Of a stretch of 25,045 nt of DNA, positions 2,684 to 25,045 are shown one piece after another. A program made the position numbers and the translations under genes. The notes beneath the pieces were generated by a model that was given only the letters and a program-made list of their open reading frames with translations, did not search any database and was not told the DNA's origin. Position 1 is the first letter of the stretch; the number at the start of each line of letters is the position of its first letter. Source of the stretch: a virus; the IMG/VR virus record IMGVR_UViG_3300012920_000245, positions 1 through 25,045 of that record. One strand, written 5' to 3'.

Positions 2684-5600
2684 CTAATTTTTCCGTTGTT
2701 CTCGTTTTTCTTTAGCTTGTCTTTTTTCTAGACTAATTCTACCAGCACCTTTAGCAAACAACGGACTTATCCTATTTAAGACTTCTGCTAATCCTGCAAT
2801 GAACCCACTTTCTTTCTTTGGGTTTTGCCAGTATAAATGTTTACCAAATACTGGTATATGCTTAATCCATCTTGCTCCACGTTTTTCGAAATCCCTCATA
2901 GCAAATTTCCATGCGTTCTGAGTATTTTTATATCTATCCAATCTGCCTTTAATGAATTTATAATCTAACCATGGGTCATCTATATAATCAAATGGTGGAA
3001 AAAAGAATTTCGCTACAGCCTTAGATGGTTCACTGTTAATTACATTGTAGTAGTGATACCTAGAGAAACCTATTAACTTTAACAAGTTAGCCTCTACTAA
3101 CTCCCCTAATGGTGTTTTCCTACCAGCCATCCAGTCTTTGATTGTATCTGCACTAGCCTCTGCTGACGCTAATATAAAACCTAAGAAAAATAAATTAGTA
3201 ATTGCTTGCACAGGCTTACCTTGTTTTACAAGCCTTTGCGTTTCATTTACATATATGTCAAATCTTTTTAACATAAAAGTTTTCAACATATAAAATATTC
3301 TACCATTTGGGTGACGCATATACCCTACAGGCACTTCAGAACGTGCAACTGGTTGTATATCTAACAGCTCACTGTAAGCTAGTAATTCTGTTAACTCAGT
3401 TACTTTACCTCTTGACAAGTCTCTAATAACCTGCTCTGTTTCATTCCTGTCAAACTTGCTACCAATTCTAGACCGTAAGTCTTTTACAGCCTTATTGTTT
3501 TTGCCTTTTATAGCTTGCTTAGATGCCGTTTCATATCTTTTCATTACACTATTCATGTAAGATTCTTTACCAACTTTGTCAAAAGTTTTTAATAAACTCA
3601 AACTAAACACAATGCTAGTAATTCTTTGCAACACTGTTTGATTGTCGCTCAACTCTTGCAGTACTTTGTTATCAATGCCTAAATTTTTCAACTTGTATTT
3701 ATTTAGATTAGTAAGACTTTTAAACACTTCGCTTAAAATCCTAGTGTAAGTAGAAGGTCTAAACAAGCCTAACGTCCTACCTTGTGCTTGTCTGTATATA
3801 GAAACACCTAAATCGCCTAACTGCGTTATAGCACTAAAAATGCTACCCATTGACGATAAGTAGCCAAGATTTCTAAATCCACTAAAAAACCAATGACTAG
3901 AGTCGTTACTAAAATAATCTTCCATTAGCTTTTGCAGTCTTTGTACTTGTGGCTGATTTAACGGTACACGAGTCTGTATATCTATAATCATATTGCCAAT
4001 TTGGTCTTTTGTGCTAAGATATGGCAATCCGTTTCTTTCTTGCTCTAGCATGCGTAGAGCCTCTAAGTAATTACCAATAGCTGGGTCTCTTCTATTTTGA
4101 AAAACTATAAGACCGTTTTCATCTTGATAGAACTGCCTAATTTTATTATCGTATATACCAAGACCCTTAGCTTTTAATTCTTTTGGTAATTTTCGTATAC
4201 TATATCTATTGGGTCTACCACCTAAAAATTGTGCTTGTGCTATTCTTTTTGACATACCATTAGCATACCTAGCTAACGTATTATGAGGGTCGTCATAAAA
4301 TTTTAATATATCAGGTGTAACTACATCAATCTTTCTTGGTTTCGTCCAATTAACATTAGCTGTAGTTAAAACTCCATTTTCATTTTTTAATAATGTGTTA
4401 GCAAGACTGACTTTTTCTACGTCTGTTAAAGTTCTACCAATCTTAGTCTGAGCATCTATTATAGCCTCAGTTAATTTACTTTTCTTGCCTACTGTAGTTT
4501 TACCAGTAGCCCATTTTAAATATGAATCATACGCTACCACTTCTCTAGGAAAGTGGTTATCTATGTGACCCATATCCAAACCTACAGCTAAGGCTTGTTC
4601 GTGTAGTTTTTCGTGTGCGGTTTTCCATGTCTGATACTGCTTGTACTGTCTGCCTGTCAGTATCTTGCTGACTGTATCTGTATCTCCATTTAGTAAAGCA
4701 AGCTTTAATGCGGTGTAGGTTGCCTTTGTTTTTTTAGTAGCAAGGCGTTTACCGCTACGAGTACTTAGTCTTTTTAGGGTTTTAGCAAATGGCTCACTAG
4801 CCTTTGTGTATTCCCTTAATATATCAGATTCTCTTTTTTGGAATCTGCGAAATAGCTCAGTAATTTTAGGGTCAATCCTATTGACTTGAGATGACCATGT
4901 CCTTACATAATCTCTTGTTTGTTTAGGCTTGAATTGTTTAGCCTCTTTTTCGTCTCTCTTAATTTGCCTTCTTGATAGGCTGTCATCGTAAATCTTTGCA
5001 TAACGATTTACATCTTCATTGCTTAAGCTAAATCCTTCTGTAGCTCCTCTTTCATCACTTCTTTGACCTTGCCTATTACGTCCTTGTCCAGCATCCCCTT
5101 GTTCTTCATTTGTATTAATGTTTTCAACACCTGTGGATGCGGTAGGGAACTGTCTCCCAAGAGCTTGTTGTCTTCTTTTTGCGACATCTAAATAACTTTC
5201 TCCCTTCTCAGGCTTTACGCCTGCTTGAATATACGTTTCTTTTTCGATATACCAAAGGACTGCTTGCACTTGGTCTACACCCCAGTCCATACCTGTAGTT
5301 TTTTCTAATTTTTTAGCAATACGTGATATAGCGTTATTCATTACTTTTAATTTTTGACTTGAAAAATCAGGAGTCACTGCACCAGTATACCTGTCAAACA
5401 TTCGAGCCATCCAAACATCTAAAACAGCCTCTTCATGCACACCATGCATGTTTACTATATATGCTCCTATTTTTTTGCCAAAAATCCGTGCTCCGAAGTA
5501 ATTTCCTTCAGGAGTTGACTTGGCTAAACCGTATTTACTTTTTAATGTTTTACTATCAAATTTTGTAAGTAAAAAATCAGTTAGCTTTTTACCTTTTCCA

Positions 5601-8239
5601 AATTCATTTACTAAGACTTGTAACTGTTCTCCCTGAGATGTAACATTATCAGCTCTTACCCCACCAAAAGGTTTACCTGTCTTGCTTAATCCACCAAACG
5701 CATCAAAAGTTTTGCCTTTATCACTTGTATAGGAAACAAAGGGCAGTTGGTCACCATCTGTATTGCCGTACACTTCCATAGCTTGATTATAATTTATTGC
5801 TACTGGCTGACCATTGCTTAATATACCAAGCAGTGTTTTAAAATATGATTCATTCTCTCTAATATCAGGCATTTCTTGCTCAGCAATTGAAATAGTATTT
5901 TCTATATCTTCCCTGTACCAACTCCTAGGTTTAGTTACAACATCAGGGTCTTGTTCGCTAAACTTAGCAATATCAGCAGTTCCACGAGTAACAATTCTAC
6001 TAGCTAACTTTTTAAATGTATCAGGTTTTATTGTTTCGCCTTTTTGTATAATAGGCTTATTAGAACGCAACCTGTCTAATACTTCTTGTGTTGATGCAAA
6101 AGCAAAACCCTCTTCAACCTCTACAGGCTTTTCAGCTTGTTTACGCTCAATTGGCTTAGTTTCTCTTTGATTTATAATAGACATATCAAAACCGTCTATA
6201 AGGTTGCTACCATCATCTTCACTAAGCTCTTCTTTAAAACTATTTAATAAATCATCAGGCAAGACCGTATAATCAGGCAGAGCTACATTGTTAGTAGACA
6301 CATCATAGCCTAAGCTATTTAAAAATGATTTGCTAAATAACTCTGCCCCACTATATGGTAACTCTTCCCCACGAACTAGGGATTCGTTTTCGACACCTTC
6401 TATCCAGCCTGCAATATCAAGTGCAAGTTCTGAGTTATTCTCAGGTAATCTTGCAAAGACAGCCTCTGCGGTATCTTCAAGGAAATCAGCTTGGTTTGCG
6501 TCTTTCGATAAGAGGATTCGTCGTGTTCCGTCCTCGTGTTCATAATTGGTTGCTCGGACTGGTATGCGATACCGATTCGCTCCATCGTCGACATAGTCAT
6601 TTTCTCCTTCCTTGATTCTGAGTTGCTCAAATTGACTTGGATTGTATCCAAGCCTATTCAATTCTTGTTCGGAAAAAACTTCTTCTATTGGTGCTGAAGA
6701 AAAACCAATAGATATTTTATCTTTATAATTCTTTAAACCGACAACACGGTCTGAGTATAATTGCTCAACATCGTTAGATGGTTCTTGTAACTGCTTATTT
6801 TTAGCAGATATTAAATCTTGTACTAATGGGTCGTTTTCAGGCACTTCTATAGAGTTACCATTTGTAAATACTAAATTAACTGTTCCCTCCACAGTTCCTT
6901 GAGCTATTTCAACAACTGATTCGGCAAATATTGCAGGTATATTAAATCCTTCTTGAAATGGCTCGTCCATCTGCAAACCTTGCCCTGTAAATTCACCTAA
7001 TCCACCTAAGCCTGCTTGCTCTAACATCTCTCGACCCCTTGCTGTTATAACAGGGGTTCCTGCCCTTCTTGCAGTAGCTATTACCCTTCCAGCTATACCA
7101 GCACTTAAAGCATCTAGTAAAGCAATAGGTATTGCTTTTAGATTAGCTTTTCTTTTGATTGTTGCCATTAATTCTTCATTAGCAAATGCCATAGCTAATT
7201 CATCTTCGTCAGTAACATCTACACCGTTCTCACGCATTAACTGTATAGTTTCATGTGCCATCTCAATAGAATATGATGCTAAGCCACTTGCTGTCATATT
7301 GCCAACAATAGCTCCTGCTCCACCGCCTAAGAGTGCTCCAGTAGGAACAGCAACTGACGCTAAAGGTGCGTATGTCGGCATAAACTGCACCATACTTTCT
7401 GTCCACAATTGTGAAACTATCTCAAAAGGGTCTCCTCCAAATTCATCTAATGTTTCTCCAAAAGTATTGTTTGGGTTCATCATTCTTTGCATTGCCTCTG
7501 TAGCAGGAATGCCTTGTGCTGTTGCCTGTGCAACTGCTAAATCTTTTACATGGTCTGCTGGGTCTTTTCCTAAAGTAATAGCGGTAGTATGATACAGACT
7601 TTTTACATTCTCTATACCTCTAAGAAGTGCGTTTTTAACACCAACAGCCTCATCATCTATACCCATGTATGTCATAGATTCTTTAAAAGTCTGATACATC
7701 TTATCAGTAAATTCTGTTTTTTCTTTAGTCTTGTTTAACTCATCTCTTATACCATCTATATTGTAAAGACCAGTATCAATAAGTTTATCAACTTGTTTTT
7801 CTTTAGTAGGAAACTCTGCGTACAAATCTTCTTTTTTCTTTTGTAAAGCAAGGTTGTTGTTTACACGTTGTTTTGCACCTTCAAGGTTTTGAAGGTTTTT
7901 TCTCCTATCTATTTCCCTTGCATAGTTAATTACTATTTCGTTCTGTTCAGGTAATCCAGTATGTATAGATGCAAACCTTAGGGCATTGCCTTCAGATTTA
8001 TCCCATATAGAATCTATAACTGCTTTAGATGCTAATTCGCCAGCCTCAGGAGTGTCGTAAAATGCAGTATAGTAAGTGCGACCATCGGTGCCTATAAAGG
8101 GTTCGCCTTTTTTCGCACCAAACTCTTCTGCTACACGAGGTGTCCATATATGTGCATTAAAATTTTGATGTGATTTTGCTCTTCTTGATTCCTCAAAAAG
8201 TGCGGTGGTGTCATACAGAAAAGAGTTTTTCTCTGACAT
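2684..8239 (-). CDS. Giant internal virion / DNA-ejection protein, polyvalent (1851 aa)
   Basis: The largest gene of the window abuts its upstream neighbour exactly (TAA then ATG). Residues 1-200 are helical and charged. Residues about 290-325 hold an Ala/Gly-rich membrane-like stretch (LLGGGAGAIVGNM), with a second at about 366-392; glycine-zipper segments of this sort are typical of ejection proteins that form channels in the host envelope. Residues about 800-1030 resemble enzyme-like or associated domains of phage polyvalent proteins (EAVLDVWMARMFDRYTG, then VDQVQAVLWYIEKETY). After a Gln/Gly/Arg-rich linker (about 1045-1068) comes a long helical half with the phrase GHIDNHFPREV near 1224, seen in other large phage internal proteins. 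Hydrophobic segments recur at about 1448-1485 and 1680-1697, and the C-terminus is strongly basic. By size and position it corresponds in role to T7 gp16-type proteins. No lytic transglycosylase motif is evident, so that activity is not claimed. Confidence 0.75.
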   Translation of the reverse strand: MSEKNSFLYDTTALFEESRRAKSHQNFNAHIWTPRVAEEFGAKKGEPFIGTDGRTYYTAFYDTPEAGELASKAVIDSIWDKSEGNALRFASIHTGLPEQNEIVINYAREIDRRKNLQNLEGAKQRVNNNLALQKKKEDLYAEFPTKEKQVDKLIDTGLYNIDGIRDELNKTKEKTEFTDKMYQTFKESMTYMGIDDEAVGVKNALLRGIENVKSLYHTTAITLGKDPADHVKDLAVAQATAQGIPATEAMQRMMNPNNTFGETLDEFGGDPFEIVSQLWTESMVQFMPTYAPLASVAVPTGALLGGGAGAIVGNMTASGLASYSIEMAHETIQLMRENGVDVTDEDELAMAFANEELMATIKRKANLKAIPIALLDALSAGIAGRVIATARRAGTPVITARGREMLEQAGLGGLGEFTGQGLQMDEPFQEGFNIPAIFAESVVEIAQGTVEGTVNLVFTNGNSIEVPENDPLVQDLISAKNKQLQEPSNDVEQLYSDRVVGLKNYKDKISIGFSSAPIEEVFSEQELNRLGYNPSQFEQLRIKEGENDYVDDGANRYRIPVRATNYEHEDGTRRILLSKDANQADFLEDTAEAVFARLPENNSELALDIAGWIEGVENESLVRGEELPYSGAELFSKSFLNSLGYDVSTNNVALPDYTVLPDDLLNSFKEELSEDDGSNLIDGFDMSIINQRETKPIERKQAEKPVEVEEGFAFASTQEVLDRLRSNKPIIQKGETIKPDTFKKLASRIVTRGTADIAKFSEQDPDVVTKPRSWYREDIENTISIAEQEMPDIRENESYFKTLLGILSNGQPVAINYNQAMEVYGNTDGDQLPFVSYTSDKGKTFDAFGGLSKTGKPFGGVRADNVTSQGEQLQVLVNEFGKGKKLTDFLLTKFDSKTLKSKYGLAKSTPEGNYFGARIFGKKIGAYIVNMHGVHEEAVLDVWMARMFDRYTGAVTPDFSSQKLKVMNNAISRIAKKLEKTTGMDWGVDQVQAVLWYIEKETYIQAGVKPEKGESYLDVAKRRQQALGRQFPTASTGVENINTNEEQGDAGQGRNRQGQRSDERGATEGFSLSNEDVNRYAKIYDDSLSRRQIKRDEKEAKQFKPKQTRDYVRTWSSQVNRIDPKITELFRRFQKRESDILREYTKASEPFAKTLKRLSTRSGKRLATKKTKATYTALKLALLNGDTDTVSKILTGRQYKQYQTWKTAHEKLHEQALAVGLDMGHIDNHFPREVVAYDSYLKWATGKTTVGKKSKLTEAIIDAQTKIGRTLTDVEKVSLANTLLKNENGVLTTANVNWTKPRKIDVVTPDILKFYDDPHNTLARYANGMSKRIAQAQFLGGRPNRYSIRKLPKELKAKGLGIYDNKIRQFYQDENGLIVFQNRRDPAIGNYLEALRMLEQERNGLPYLSTKDQIGNMIIDIQTRVPLNQPQVQRLQKLMEDYFSNDSSHWFFSGFRNLGYLSSMGSIFSAITQLGDLGVSIYRQAQGRTLGLFRPSTYTRILSEVFKSLTNLNKYKLKNLGIDNKVLQELSDNQTVLQRITSIVFSLSLLKTFDKVGKESYMNSVMKRYETASKQAIKGKNNKAVKDLRSRIGSKFDRNETEQVIRDLSRGKVTELTELLAYSELLDIQPVARSEVPVGYMRHPNGRIFYMLKTFMLKRFDIYVNETQRLVKQGKPVQAITNLFFLGFILASAEASADTIKDWMAGRKTPLGELVEANLLKLIGFSRYHYYNVINSEPSKAVAKFFFPPFDYIDDPWLDYKFIKGRLDRYKNTQNAWKFAMRDFEKRGARWIKHIPVFGKHLYWQNPKKESGFIAGLAEVLNRISPLFAKGAGRISLEKRQAKEKREQRKN

Positions 8240-9616
8240 TTATCTTCTGTTCTTACGTAGAAACTCTACTAATTTATTCATTTCTTTAACGCCAACATCA
8301 GGAAACTCAGGCATTAAGTCATCTACTGTTTTTTTTCCGCTTTTTAAATCTCTAGCAGTTTCCATTAGAGTTCTTATTGGCGTAACTGTAGAATGCAATG
8401 GAACAGTGTTAATCTTTGGTCTCTCGCCTGTTTTACCTGCGGTATATACTTGCGGTATTGATTGACCTGATGCATCTGTTATGTTTGGAACCATTGTTCT
8501 GTCCATTGGCATTATACTAAGATTTGTTATAGCTGAAGGCGAAAGCATTGCTAGTTGTTCAGGGCTTAGATTAATATCGCCATATTTTTCATCTCCTAGC
8601 ATTTCTACAGTTTCAGGATTTGCTTTCATTTCATCTTGCATGGCTTTGCGTGTTGCTAGAATTTTTGCTACCTTCATGTCAACGTCTCTATTTCTGCTAG
8701 GCAGAGAAAGTCTGTCCTTACTAGGTTTTTTATTAGCCTTTGACATTGCGTCTTCATATGCCTCTGTTACAGACATATCTTTCTTTTTTTGCACACGACG
8801 CTGTAGCTCTCTTTCAAAAATATTTCGTTTTTCTTCTCTAGTTACTGGCTTGGGTGGCTCCTTGCTACGCTCTACATTTGGTGCGTATTTTACGTTGCCC
8901 TTCATATTTTTTAAAGATTGTTGATAAGCTTTTTCTGTTTCAGCTCCACCAATAGGAGATGTCTCGCCTTTCTTTTCTCCAAATATTGCTTTACTACGCA
9001 ACTTGTTACGTTTCGTACGCTCTTCATCCATTGTTCCAATTGGCTGTGTTTGAACCATATTAGTGTCGCTTACAGGCTTTGTTATGTCTGTTTTTAATGC
9101 ACCACCTCCTGCAAGATTTGACATGTTAAATCCACCCATATTGCTATTAGCCATTTGGTTTGTTTGATTTAATTGTCTACCATCAGAAAGCGTAGATAGT
9201 TTTGGAGGAGTAGAAGACTTAGCATCTGACATAATGTTTTTACCAAACCCTTTTATAGAATCTACTGCTCTTTGCATAAGGCTAGGTTTTTCAGGCTCTT
9301 TTTGTGGTGCTGTTGGCTGTATTGCTGACATGCCTAACCTTTGCCTTGCACTATTAGAAATAGCGTTTTGCTGGCTATATGCGTCGTATGTTGCCTTTGG
9401 TATTTCTACAGGTATGTAAGATTGTGATGTCCTATCAAATTCATTTAAATAGTACTTACCATCAGCATCTTGGTATATATTTTTAAAAGGAAACTGTCTA
9501 AGTGTTTGCATAGATGCTTCCTGCTCTTGTGCATCTTTTCTACGTTGGTTGTCTAGCAACTCTTGTAACGGATTCTTTTCTAACCTTCTTGTTCCAAACT
9601 GATATTGTTGTGCCAT
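8240..9616 (-). CDS. Probable internal virion protein (458 aa)
   Basis: The 458-residue protein is hydrophilic and largely helical or disordered, rich in Lys, Glu, Gln, Met and Pro, with no membrane segment. It begins MAQQYQFGTRRLEKNP; the FGTRRL phrase is nearly repeated (FGTKRL) at the start of the 80-residue protein encoded three genes upstream. Residues about 35-80 form a compact segment (FKNIYQDADGKYYLNEF), and residues about 240-320 are highly basic and helical. It lies between the 169-residue and 1851-residue ejection-type genes, abutting both. Position suggests a middle member of a three-protein ejection set like T7 gp14, gp15 and gp16, but I recognise no family from the sequence, so the role is inferred from context. 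Confidence 0.65.
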   Translation of the reverse strand: MAQQYQFGTRRLEKNPLQELLDNQRRKDAQEQEASMQTLRQFPFKNIYQDADGKYYLNEFDRTSQSYIPVEIPKATYDAYSQQNAISNSARQRLGMSAIQPTAPQKEPEKPSLMQRAVDSIKGFGKNIMSDAKSSTPPKLSTLSDGRQLNQTNQMANSNMGGFNMSNLAGGGALKTDITKPVSDTNMVQTQPIGTMDEERTKRNKLRSKAIFGEKKGETSPIGGAETEKAYQQSLKNMKGNVKYAPNVERSKEPPKPVTREEKRNIFERELQRRVQKKKDMSVTEAYEDAMSKANKKPSKDRLSLPSRNRDVDMKVAKILATRKAMQDEMKANPETVEMLGDEKYGDINLSPEQLAMLSPSAITNLSIMPMDRTMVPNITDASGQSIPQVYTAGKTGERPKINTVPLHSTVTPIRTLMETARDLKSGKKTVDDLMPEFPDVGVKEMNKLVEFLRKNRR

Positions 9617-23836: not shown

Positions 23837-23866
23837 TTGACATGTGTTACTTAAGTTACTTAATAT
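23837..23866 (+). promoter_or_regulatory. Sigma70-like promoter of the ardC-like gene
   Basis: A perfect -35 TTGACA (23837-23842) lies 18 bases before TAATAT (23861-23866). An A/T tract with T-runs and A-runs directly upstream (about 23809-23833) could act as an UP element. The start of transcription would fall near 23873, about 55 bases before the gene. A 9-base tandem repeat GTTACTTAA (23846-23863) covers the spacer and the first half of the -10, and a TTAAAT-g-ATTTAA palindrome (23878-23890) follows, so repression at this promoter is likely. Confidence 0.65.
23846..23863 (+). repeat. Tandem 9-base direct repeat in promoter
   Basis: GTTACTTAA occurs twice without a gap, at 23846-23854 and 23855-23863, between the -35 and into the -10 box. 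The junction of the copies also includes the CTTAAG palindrome. A protein bound here would block RNA polymerase, so this is an operator candidate. Confidence 0.65.
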
Positions 23867-23927: not shown

Positions 23928-24893
23928 ATGAAAAAAGAGAACTTCGAGAAACTAATTCAACCAATCTTAAACCAAATAGACAAGGGCGTTATACCTTGGG
24001 ATAAACCATGGAATTGCGAATATGAAGGTGGCGAGCTATCCTTCGGTCTTCAACGTAGTGCTAGCACTGGTAAATTATACACTGGACTTAACAGTCTTAT
24101 CTTACAGTGCATTGCTCAGGACGCAGGCTATAAAAATAGATATTGGGCAACATATCGACAGCTTAGCAAGCTAGGCGGTCAGGTTCGCAAAGGTAGCAAG
24201 GGCACAACTGTATTCTTTTGGAAAAAAGCTAACTTTACCGTCGGTGAGAAGACATGCACTACTTGTCAAGGTGCACCAGTTTACGACGGCAATGAGTGTG
24301 GCAATTGTGATTCATCAGGACGCAATAGCTGGTTAATTAGATGCTACACTGTCTTTAACTTTGACCAGTGCGATTTTCAGGACGGTGTACCTACCAAGTT
24401 TGTACCTAAGAAAGTTGCCAAGCCTAAGAAGGTTGCCAAGACAGTTATTCACAAGCAAGCACAGAAGGTTGTAGATAATTATACTAAAAAGCTAGCAGGC
24501 GGTCTTAACCATGGTGGTGACAGTGCTTTTTACAGCCCTTTGTCTGACTCAGTGTCAGTGCCTAAGAGAACACAGTTTAAAACACCTAGTTACTACTACA
24601 GAGTGTTATTCCACGAGCTAACGCACTCAACTGGTCATAAATCTAGGCTTGACAGGTTCAAGAGCTTTGCTAGTCACCAGTTCGGTAGCGTCGAGTACAG
24701 CAAAGAAGAGTTAGTTGCTGAGTTAGGTGCTTGCGGTTTAGCTAGCCACCTAGGCATTGACCCTAAGGTAGAGCGTAAGAATTCAGTAGCTTATCTACAA
24801 TCATGGTCAAAGGCTCTTAAGGACTCACCTAAAGAGTTTGTATACGCCTCACAGCAAGCGTTTAGAGCAGTTAACTTGATACTCGCCAAGTAA
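23928..24893 (+). CDS. ardC: ArdC-like antirestriction protein: ssDNA-binding domain plus zincin metallopeptidase domain
   Basis: The 321-residue protein has an N-terminal ArdC-type single-strand DNA-binding domain (residues 1-150; VIPWDKPW at 21-28, YTGLNSLIL at 51-59, YWATYRQLSKLGGQVRKG at 72-89). A Lys-rich linker follows at about 160-180. The C-terminal domain has zincin signature HELTH at 229-233, GHKSRLDRF next to it, and YSKEELVAELGA at 257-268, which supplies the third, glutamate zinc ligand. Known ArdC proteins protect incoming DNA from restriction. An odd feature is a CxxC pair at 110/113 and another at 124/127 inside the N-terminal domain, a possible zinc ribbon. The gene reads opposite to the virion genes from its own promoter, as expected for an early function. 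Symbol by family, not by proven orthology. Confidence 0.85.
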   Translation: MKKENFEKLIQPILNQIDKGVIPWDKPWNCEYEGGELSFGLQRSASTGKLYTGLNSLILQCIAQDAGYKNRYWATYRQLSKLGGQVRKGSKGTTVFFWKKANFTVGEKTCTTCQGAPVYDGNECGNCDSSGRNSWLIRCYTVFNFDQCDFQDGVPTKFVPKKVAKPKKVAKTVIHKQAQKVVDNYTKKLAGGLNHGGDSAFYSPLSDSVSVPKRTQFKTPSYYYRVLFHELTHSTGHKSRLDRFKSFASHQFGSVEYSKEELVAELGACGLASHLGIDPKVERKNSVAYLQSWSKALKDSPKEFVYASQQAFRAVNLILAK

Positions 24894-24901
24894 TGCGAGC
24901 T

Positions 24902-24945
24902 AGCCTAAATTGGATGCAGGGCGGTTCGATTCCGCCCTTAGGCTC
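24902..24945 (+). other. tRNA-like acceptor/T-arm element
   Basis: Eight bases after the ardC-like stop, AGCCTAA (24902-24908) is exactly complementary to TTAGGCT (24938-24944). Between them GGGCGG (24919-24924) and CCGCCC (24932-24937) enclose TTCGATT, a standard T-loop. The T-arm and the acceptor 3' strand are contiguous, as in tRNA. Only ten bases (24909-24918) replace the D-arm, anticodon arm and variable region, so it is not a functional tRNA; no CCA follows. It may be a tRNA-gene-derived attachment core, a tRNA relic, or a small tRNA mimic. Confidence 0.6.
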
Positions 24946-24963
24946 TATAGCAATAAAGCTATA
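24946..24963 (+). other. Small hairpin after tRNA-like element
   Basis: TATAGC (24946-24951) and GCTATA (24958-24963) pair around AATAAA. The stem is short and AT-rich and no U-run follows, so termination is doubtful. It follows the tRNA-like element directly and might belong to the same structure. Confidence 0.4.
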
Positions 24964-24988
24964 ACATAAAACACAAAAGGAAAATACA

Positions 24989-25045
24989 ATGAGAATAGTA
25001 TCTGAAACTATAAACAACCATGATACAGAAAATGATATGATGACA
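24989..25045 (+). CDS. Start of a small early gene, partial
   Basis: ATG at 24989-24991 is preceded by AAAGGA (24976-24981) at seven bases. The frame stays open for 19 codons to the window end, beginning MRIVSETINNHDTEND. It is on the same strand as the ardC-like gene, probably in the same transcript. Too little is present to name a family. Confidence 0.6.
   Translation, partial: MRIVSETINNHDTENDMMT

Follow-up and report, generated by a model that had tools for sequence, protein, structure and literature searches.

Many unrelated phages place a miniature tRNA-like RNA element between consecutive genes, probably for cutting of the transcript by host tRNA-cutting enzymes. The open-access literature yielded no description of this mini-tRNA, which is probably undescribed. 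The copy analyzed here lies near the end of the window, i.e., the entire virus record IMGVR_UViG_3300012920_000245 (25,045 bp), which is probably a fragment since its early genes run past the end of the record. The minus strand codes for SU10/P22-like portal, capsid, and adaptor proteins, and also (positions 2684-8239) for a protein of 1851 amino acids without a Pfam match that is maybe a big internal virion protein. On the plus strand, the upstream neighbor of the element is an ardC-like anti-restriction gene (23928-24893; Pfam ArdcN and MPTase-PolyVal; PHROG anti-restriction protein, E 5e-74). A sigma-70-like promoter sequence (TTGACA-18-TAATAT, 23837-23866, plus strand) precedes both gene and element with 10 of 12 consensus matches, which is suggestive only, as the four promoter-like sites of the scanned region compare with 3.0 expected, i.e., background.

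Anatomy of the window element

The last base of the ardC stop codon is 24893, and 8 nucleotides separate it from the 5' strand of the acceptor stem (AGCCTAA, 24902-24908), which pairs with the 3' strand TTAGGCT at 24938-24944. Enclosed by these strands are a linker of 10 nucleotides (attggatgca, 24909-24918), containing the mini D-hairpin AT-TGG-AT with a G18G19-like GG (24909-24915), and the T arm GGGCGG TTCGATT CCGCCC (24919-24937; stem 24919-24924/24932-24937, loop 24925-24931). All pairs in the acceptor and T stems are Watson-Crick. An unpaired C follows at the discriminator position 73 (24945), with no CCA after it, and then a second hairpin of 6 bp (TATAGC AATAAA GCTATA, 24946-24963). 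An A-rich leader connects this hairpin to an AGGA ribosome-binding site (24978-24981) and to the ATG at 24989 of the downstream early gene (MRIVSETINN..., 24989-25045), truncated by the end of the record. All of these features are on the plus strand.

The first-pass annotation had described a perfect 7-bp acceptor and a T arm of 6 bp with the loop TTCGATT around a 10-nt linker at 24902-24945, stacked as in tRNA and directly past the ardC-like gene. The sequence bears out these coordinates, stems, and position, and the RNA fold keeps both helices coaxial. Four parts had been overlooked: the D-like hairpin of the linker, the second hairpin, the AGGA with its ATG, and the spacing from the ardC stop. 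Among 150 dinucleotide shuffles of the whole window, the combination of a T stem of at least 6 bp, an acceptor of at least 7 bp, and a TTCRANN loop occurred twice, and with the exact TTCGATT loop it occurred 0 times.

Conservation and covariation in a marine family

Relatives of the window were reached through the ArdC protein (68% identity) and the terminase. The composite was common to both sets of relatives, where it lies between consecutive early genes with differing stem sequences. A covariance model (R1) built from 11 copies, with the window left out, scored the window copy at 68.6 bits, with an E-value of about 3e-13, and recovered 34 further copies at E <= 1e-6 in 12 other related marine phage contigs. 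MAFFT alone misaligned the copies, and the alignment (A5) was made with a fixed-length seed and a covariance model. Within A5, 97.5% of cells were paired; after shuffling the figure was 68.3%, and with slid partners it was 41-49%. Double-sided changes were seen in 16 of 19 pairs, and the covariation score was 0.78 against 0.21 for shuffled data. All of these figures are biased towards the structure since A5 was fitted to the model. Covariation was present in all three helices: in both strands of the acceptor (5' strand in columns 1-7), in the T stem (helix 2), where all cells (100%) were paired and five of six pairs changed on both sides, and, independently, in the second hairpin (helix 3). 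The copy that occupies the same place after ardC in one relative (locus L003; AACTCAG...CTGAGTT) has stems different from those of the window copy, and both copies are perfectly paired. A chance structure at 24902-24945 is ruled out by these related copies; the first-pass annotation had made that reading depend on lack of conservation of the two stems in related phages together with lack of a matching host tRNA 3' end, and both stems are kept in the relatives, by covariation.

The conserved positions are A1-U72, C73 (in 35 of 35 A5 copies), the linker GG, and the T loop TTCRANT (mostly TTCGATT). In the linker, the bases at -1/+1 and -2/+2 of NN-UGG-N'N' were paired in 21 of 25 distinct copies compared with 10-11 after shuffling, a level reached in 0 of 2000 shuffles, and the remaining four are able to pair with a 4-5-nt loop in the mini D-hairpin. 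The linker is therefore a covarying mini D-hairpin, which means that the element has retained the acceptor, the D-loop GG, and the T arm and has lost the anticodon arm. The retained segments are the elbow-forming parts of tRNA. The second hairpin starts one, rarely two, nucleotides past the acceptor in the marine family, and its start falls at positions 74-77 in 30 of 31 marine copies.

Placement between early genes

Marine copies are found on the early-gene strand, with up to six in a row (contigs G002 and G005). In most of them (32 of 38) the distance between an upstream stop codon and the start of the copy is -7 to +17 nt, and 37 of 38 have an in-frame start 9-38 nt downstream of the second hairpin. 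One 42-kb contig (G011) has five copies inside 2.7 kb, and a 35-kb genome with a terminal repeat of about 119 bp (G020) has three inside 0.8 kb. A recombination-like difference was seen between two records (L065:6877-7237 versus L008:6498-6560), in which 3300037634_002664 is without one gene and one element of 3300006754_000126.

Elements in cultured mycobacteriophages

Scans of about 42-47 kb each detected plus-strand elements in the cultured Mycobacterium smegmatis phages Cuke (locus L163; 11), Fowlmouth (8), Indlulamithi (11), and MrMiyagi (9); the minus strand of the same parts had 0, as did TM4 and lambda. For all but one of the 22 elements of Cuke and Indlulamithi (21/22), the distance to an annotated stop is between -6 and +13 nt, and the gene that follows starts 28-52 nt past the element. 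An adjacent hairpin accompanies 30 of 33 distinct mycobacteriophage elements, compared with 2.1 expected; these copies have A73-C74-G75, with the hairpin mostly from about position 77. The feature tables retrieved for the cultured mycobacteriophages contained no mini-tRNA annotation. In Cuke, the annotated starts of genes 43, 44, and 52 (L476:5430-5476, 5662-5759, and 9065-9090) are located before or inside a mini-tRNA, and the nucleotide sequence suggests that the true starts are downstream, at the ribosome-binding site and start codon just past the element.

Distribution beyond the marine family

The architecture recurs in unrelated phages and prophages. As covariation computed on a scanner's own matches is circular, we swapped the flanks of matches to a sequence-only pattern (AATGGTT-N4-9-GGTTCGATTCC) in IMG/VR and GTDB genomes. 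Among the viral matches listed (124 distinct), 55 had at least 12 coaxial flank pairs compared with 0.7 after swapping of 3' flanks, and among the GTDB matches listed (126) the figures were 35 and 0.5. In a test of D-stem variants, the paired AATGGTT and CATGGTG gave at least 55 and at least 32 structured matches, respectively, versus 6 for the mismatched AATGGAA in a complete scan. In 236 loci totalling 1.96 Mb, a structure scanner detected 140 D-hairpin-bearing elements, compared with 0 in three dinucleotide shuffles.

Merging left 161 distinct elements. The split between acceptor and T stem varies (5+7, 6+6, 7+5, 6+7), and the sum is 12-13 bp in 146 of the 161, where 12 is the minimum imposed by the scan. 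CCA at positions 74-76 was encoded by three of 161, which is about the chance level, and CC at 74-75 by four. In the non-marine phage set, a hairpin starts at 74-77 in 34 of 128 elements versus 2.8 expected; some Bacteroidota copies are without it. A Lachnospiraceae contig (L320), a putative phage whose proteins gave no PHROG match, contains eight intergenic copies within 7 kb. BLAST searches with L320, L198, L147, and L146 matched no named phage. The phage crAss001 had no clear element and one marginal match, and two loci of similar size (L048 and L201) carry elements.

Arrays with few genes between copies were also observed. At L198:1626-2849 (minus) there are at least seven mini-tRNAs and few ORFs; most have 9-bp acceptors such as GTAAGCATA/TATGCTTAT, and some additional units have TGCAAAT-type T loops. 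At L106:1096-1778 (minus) there are at least five near-identical mini-tRNAs (GCGAGCC...GGCTCGC) in AT-rich sequence with no ORFs of note. A contig labelled as Bathyarchaeota (L212:778-1255), either an archaeal virus or a binning error, has three within less than 500 bp.

Comparison with known RNA classes

ARAGORN predicted no tRNA or tmRNA gene in the window, and Rfam 15 gave nothing significant in the window tail, RF00005 and the C4 family included. The snoRNA matches in that scan were due to chance, as was an antisense match to Plastid-ycf2 (20.9 bits, where the gathering score is 65.7). Across 11 element-bearing loci, no Rfam family exceeded its gathering score save one ordinary tRNA. The tRNA-Phe that ARAGORN called in L002-L004 (L003:4889-4960) overlaps a mini-tRNA and is a false tRNA call, which is to be expected in such phages. 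An intrinsic terminator was rejected, as an A-rich leader is found in place of a U tract and no plus-strand terminator-like site coincides with the window element; promoter and terminator scans stayed at background level.

Instead of an anticodon arm, 9-14 nt separate acceptor and T stem, and they are occupied by the mini D-hairpin. A degenerate tRNA, which the first-pass annotation had listed as one of three options, does not agree with up to six copies per contig that differ in stem sequence and are placed between genes, and a perfect 7-bp acceptor around a 10-nt linker is not built on a full tRNA. The tRNA-like domain of tmRNA also has an acceptor, a D-loop without a normal D stem, and a T arm. 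The mini-tRNA resembles it in these three parts, but the long P2 helix, the tag reading frame, and the CCA of tmRNA are absent here. In the early region of T7, intergenic RNase III sites split the polycistronic early mRNA into separate messages; mini-tRNAs are likewise structured and intergenic, whereas the T7 sites are long hairpins and not tRNA-like.

The closest parallels involve RNAs processed by tRNA enzymes. Plant mitochondrial t-elements are cis-encoded tRNA-like sequences that are processed by RNase P and RNase Z and set mRNA ends (PMC11658184). Like the phage elements, they are tRNA-like RNAs beside protein genes that never encode CCA (PMC11658184). However, t-elements are organellar homologues of tRNA genes with a typical tRNA-like secondary structure. 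The phage elements have only acceptor, mini D-hairpin, and T arm, are repeated in many gene gaps of a single operon, and are predicted to be processed. The tRNA-like RNA at mRNA ends or between genes that characterizes tRNA punctuation is found in the marine set and in Cuke and Indlulamithi. The element would function like tRNA punctuation or t-elements, though without homology to tRNA genes, and there is a real chance that it deserves a class of its own among tRNA-like cis elements. An acceptor-plus-T-arm hairpin is an efficient model substrate of RNase P (PMC11143913); that substrate, AT1, is synthetic, whereas the phage elements are natural, include a covarying mini D-hairpin, and have no 3' CCA. 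Host RNase P cuts several phage RNAs, i.e., the C4 antisense RNA of P1/P7, M3 RNA, and T4 gene 32 mRNA (PMC11143913), but these are single, do not occur in each intergenic gap, and are not described as having a mini-tRNA fold. The SAS/ESAS sequences of cluster K mycobacteriophages are similarly repeated just upstream of start codons; they consist of a conserved SAS and 17-bp imperfect inverted repeats, for which their authors found little support for RNA hairpins (PMC3203893). TM4, a cluster K phage bearing SAS/ESAS, is without mini-tRNAs, and the two kinds of element were compared by description.

A putative role in the processing of early mRNA

We regard it as somewhat probable that the element is a cis-acting punctuation mark of polycistronic early mRNA, cut by host RNase Z and/or RNase P. 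Structure and covariation, intergenic placement, the conserved adjacent hairpin, the lack of encoded CCA, and recurrence in unrelated phages form its observed basis, from which we infer cleavage, the enzyme responsible, and an effect on mRNA stability. A minimal tRNA of this kind would present only the features that nucleases read, i.e., the D-loop/T-loop elbow and about 12-13 bp of coaxial acceptor/T stack. For the window element, host RNase Z is the most likely enzyme and would cut after the unpaired C73 (predicted site 24945/24946), and RNase P might alternatively or additionally cut before nucleotide 1. The transcript would thereby be split between genes: the downstream mRNA would begin with the second hairpin, shielding it against 5'-end-dependent decay, and the upstream mRNA would either end just past the stop codon or retain the mini-tRNA, which would protect its 3' end. 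Since the elbow parts and the stack are kept, CCA is missing, and the hairpin lies exactly at the predicted downstream 5' end, processing is favored, with RNase Z first for the marine family. Bacterial RNase P prefers a 3' RCC. This motif (positions 73-75) is missing from marine copies, where C73 is followed by U, A, or G, and is partial in the A73-C74-G75 of mycobacteriophage copies, which together with a hairpin from about position 77 would fit RNase P somewhat better.

RNase P, RNase Z, and CCA-adding enzymes recognize the elbow and gauge how long the acceptor/T stack is (PMC4919913). RNase Z cleaves just past the discriminator, irrespective of which base it is, and CC or CCA at that place inhibits the enzyme (PMC7479834); at the level of sequence features, the element has the acceptor/T-arm stack and neither CC nor CCA past the discriminator. 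References given in PMC3997798 indicate that 5'-terminal stem-loops can stabilize mRNA. On the other hand, the RNase Z of B. subtilis, unlike two archaeal enzymes, is reported to be inactive on intron-embedded pre-tRNAs and on pre-tRNAs without D, T, or anticodon arms (PMC7479834). Processing is also less easily reconciled with the missing 3' RCC of the window-type element, the Bacteroidota copies without a second hairpin, and the L106 and L198 arrays, where few or no genes lie between copies.

Alternative explanations

An unlikely alternative is an uncut 5'UTR or 3'UTR structure that functions, free of endonucleolytic processing, as a roadblock or protein-binding leader, i.e., as a stabilizer, an insulator against Rho or upstream ribosomes, or a translation control. 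Nearly all marine copies do have a stop codon on one side and a ribosome-binding site on the other, and the structure is stable while RNase cleavage is what we infer. A plain hairpin would be enough for such a role, however, which leaves unexplained why the D-loop GG, the T-loop TTCRAYT, and the tRNA-like coaxial length are retained jointly. Two consecutive hairpins in early transcripts also make up the put RNA of HK022, and the element could similarly recur along the operon as an attenuator or as antitermination RNA of the put/nut kind. We consider this quite improbable, given that no U-tract follows the hairpins, that promoter and terminator scans did not exceed background, and that put sites number one or two per genome and not one per gene.

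A feature acting at the DNA level, such as an attP, a degenerate tRNA, or a recombination boundary between gene modules, is very improbable. Compared with G002, one contig (G004) is one gene and one element short, a difference that recombination between two elements could have produced, but copies have the structure and not the sequence in common, and their stems covary. The first-pass annotation had offered an attP as another of its options and had pointed to a nearby integrase as a check. None was recognized among the window proteins examined, no CCA is present, and the exact 25-nt core of the window element was found in no other viral contig, so that together with the multiple copies of differing sequence the attP reading falls. 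Of its three options, we favor the remaining one, a tRNA-like RNA predicted to engage host tRNA enzymes. It is improbable that the excised mini-tRNA acts in trans as a small RNA, e.g., as a decoy for tRNA-targeting defences or for tRNA-modifying or CCA-adding enzymes. The L106 and L198 arrays, whose copies are separated by little coding sequence, are in line with this role, and immunity by cleavage of tRNA tails is known from Cas12a3 (PMC12851939). Against it are the missing CCA and the strict cis position before start codons in the marine, mycobacteriophage, and Lachnospiraceae-contig sets.

Implications

Tentatively, we propose a general mRNA-processing code, made of a mini-tRNA and an adjacent hairpin in gene gaps, that is used by phages of many bacterial phyla and has either an ancient or several independent origins. 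If cis-acting punctuation is the correct reading, cutting and end protection are handed to host tRNA-maturation enzymes, as a phage counterpart of mitochondrial tRNA punctuation, and the elements constitute a large new RNA class. The element suggests that phages co-opt essential tRNA enzymes for the processing and protection of early transcripts, and would show a tRNA remainder under selection for processing signals alone, with elbow and acceptor stack but neither anticodon nor CCA. The RNA element is widespread and unannotated in phage genomes, those of publicly available cultured phages included, and its recognition is of use in annotation, where it points to apparently misplaced starts (Cuke 43, 44, and 52, with the element lying within the annotated frame) and to false tRNAs that tRNA finders can produce. 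Phages of M. smegmatis offer a ready laboratory system.

Structured leaders and a variant form

Three related phages (L065:4240-4500, the reverse strand of L067, and L070:7160-7420) have before the first early gene a leader that is structured, conserved, and about 200 nt long, with no significant Rfam match; the ardC leader of the window is without it. This leader ends in a second tRNA-like fold (GGGCTTG, AAGG-TTCAGT-CCTT, TCAG-TTCGCTA-CTGA, CAAGCCC), followed in two of the three phages by the usual hairpin. At L054:1050-1142, the mini D-hairpin GGA-CGG-TCC is accompanied by an additional, large-looped CCCGG arm at the place of the anticodon arm, and this variant is a possible intermediate between tRNA and mini-tRNA.
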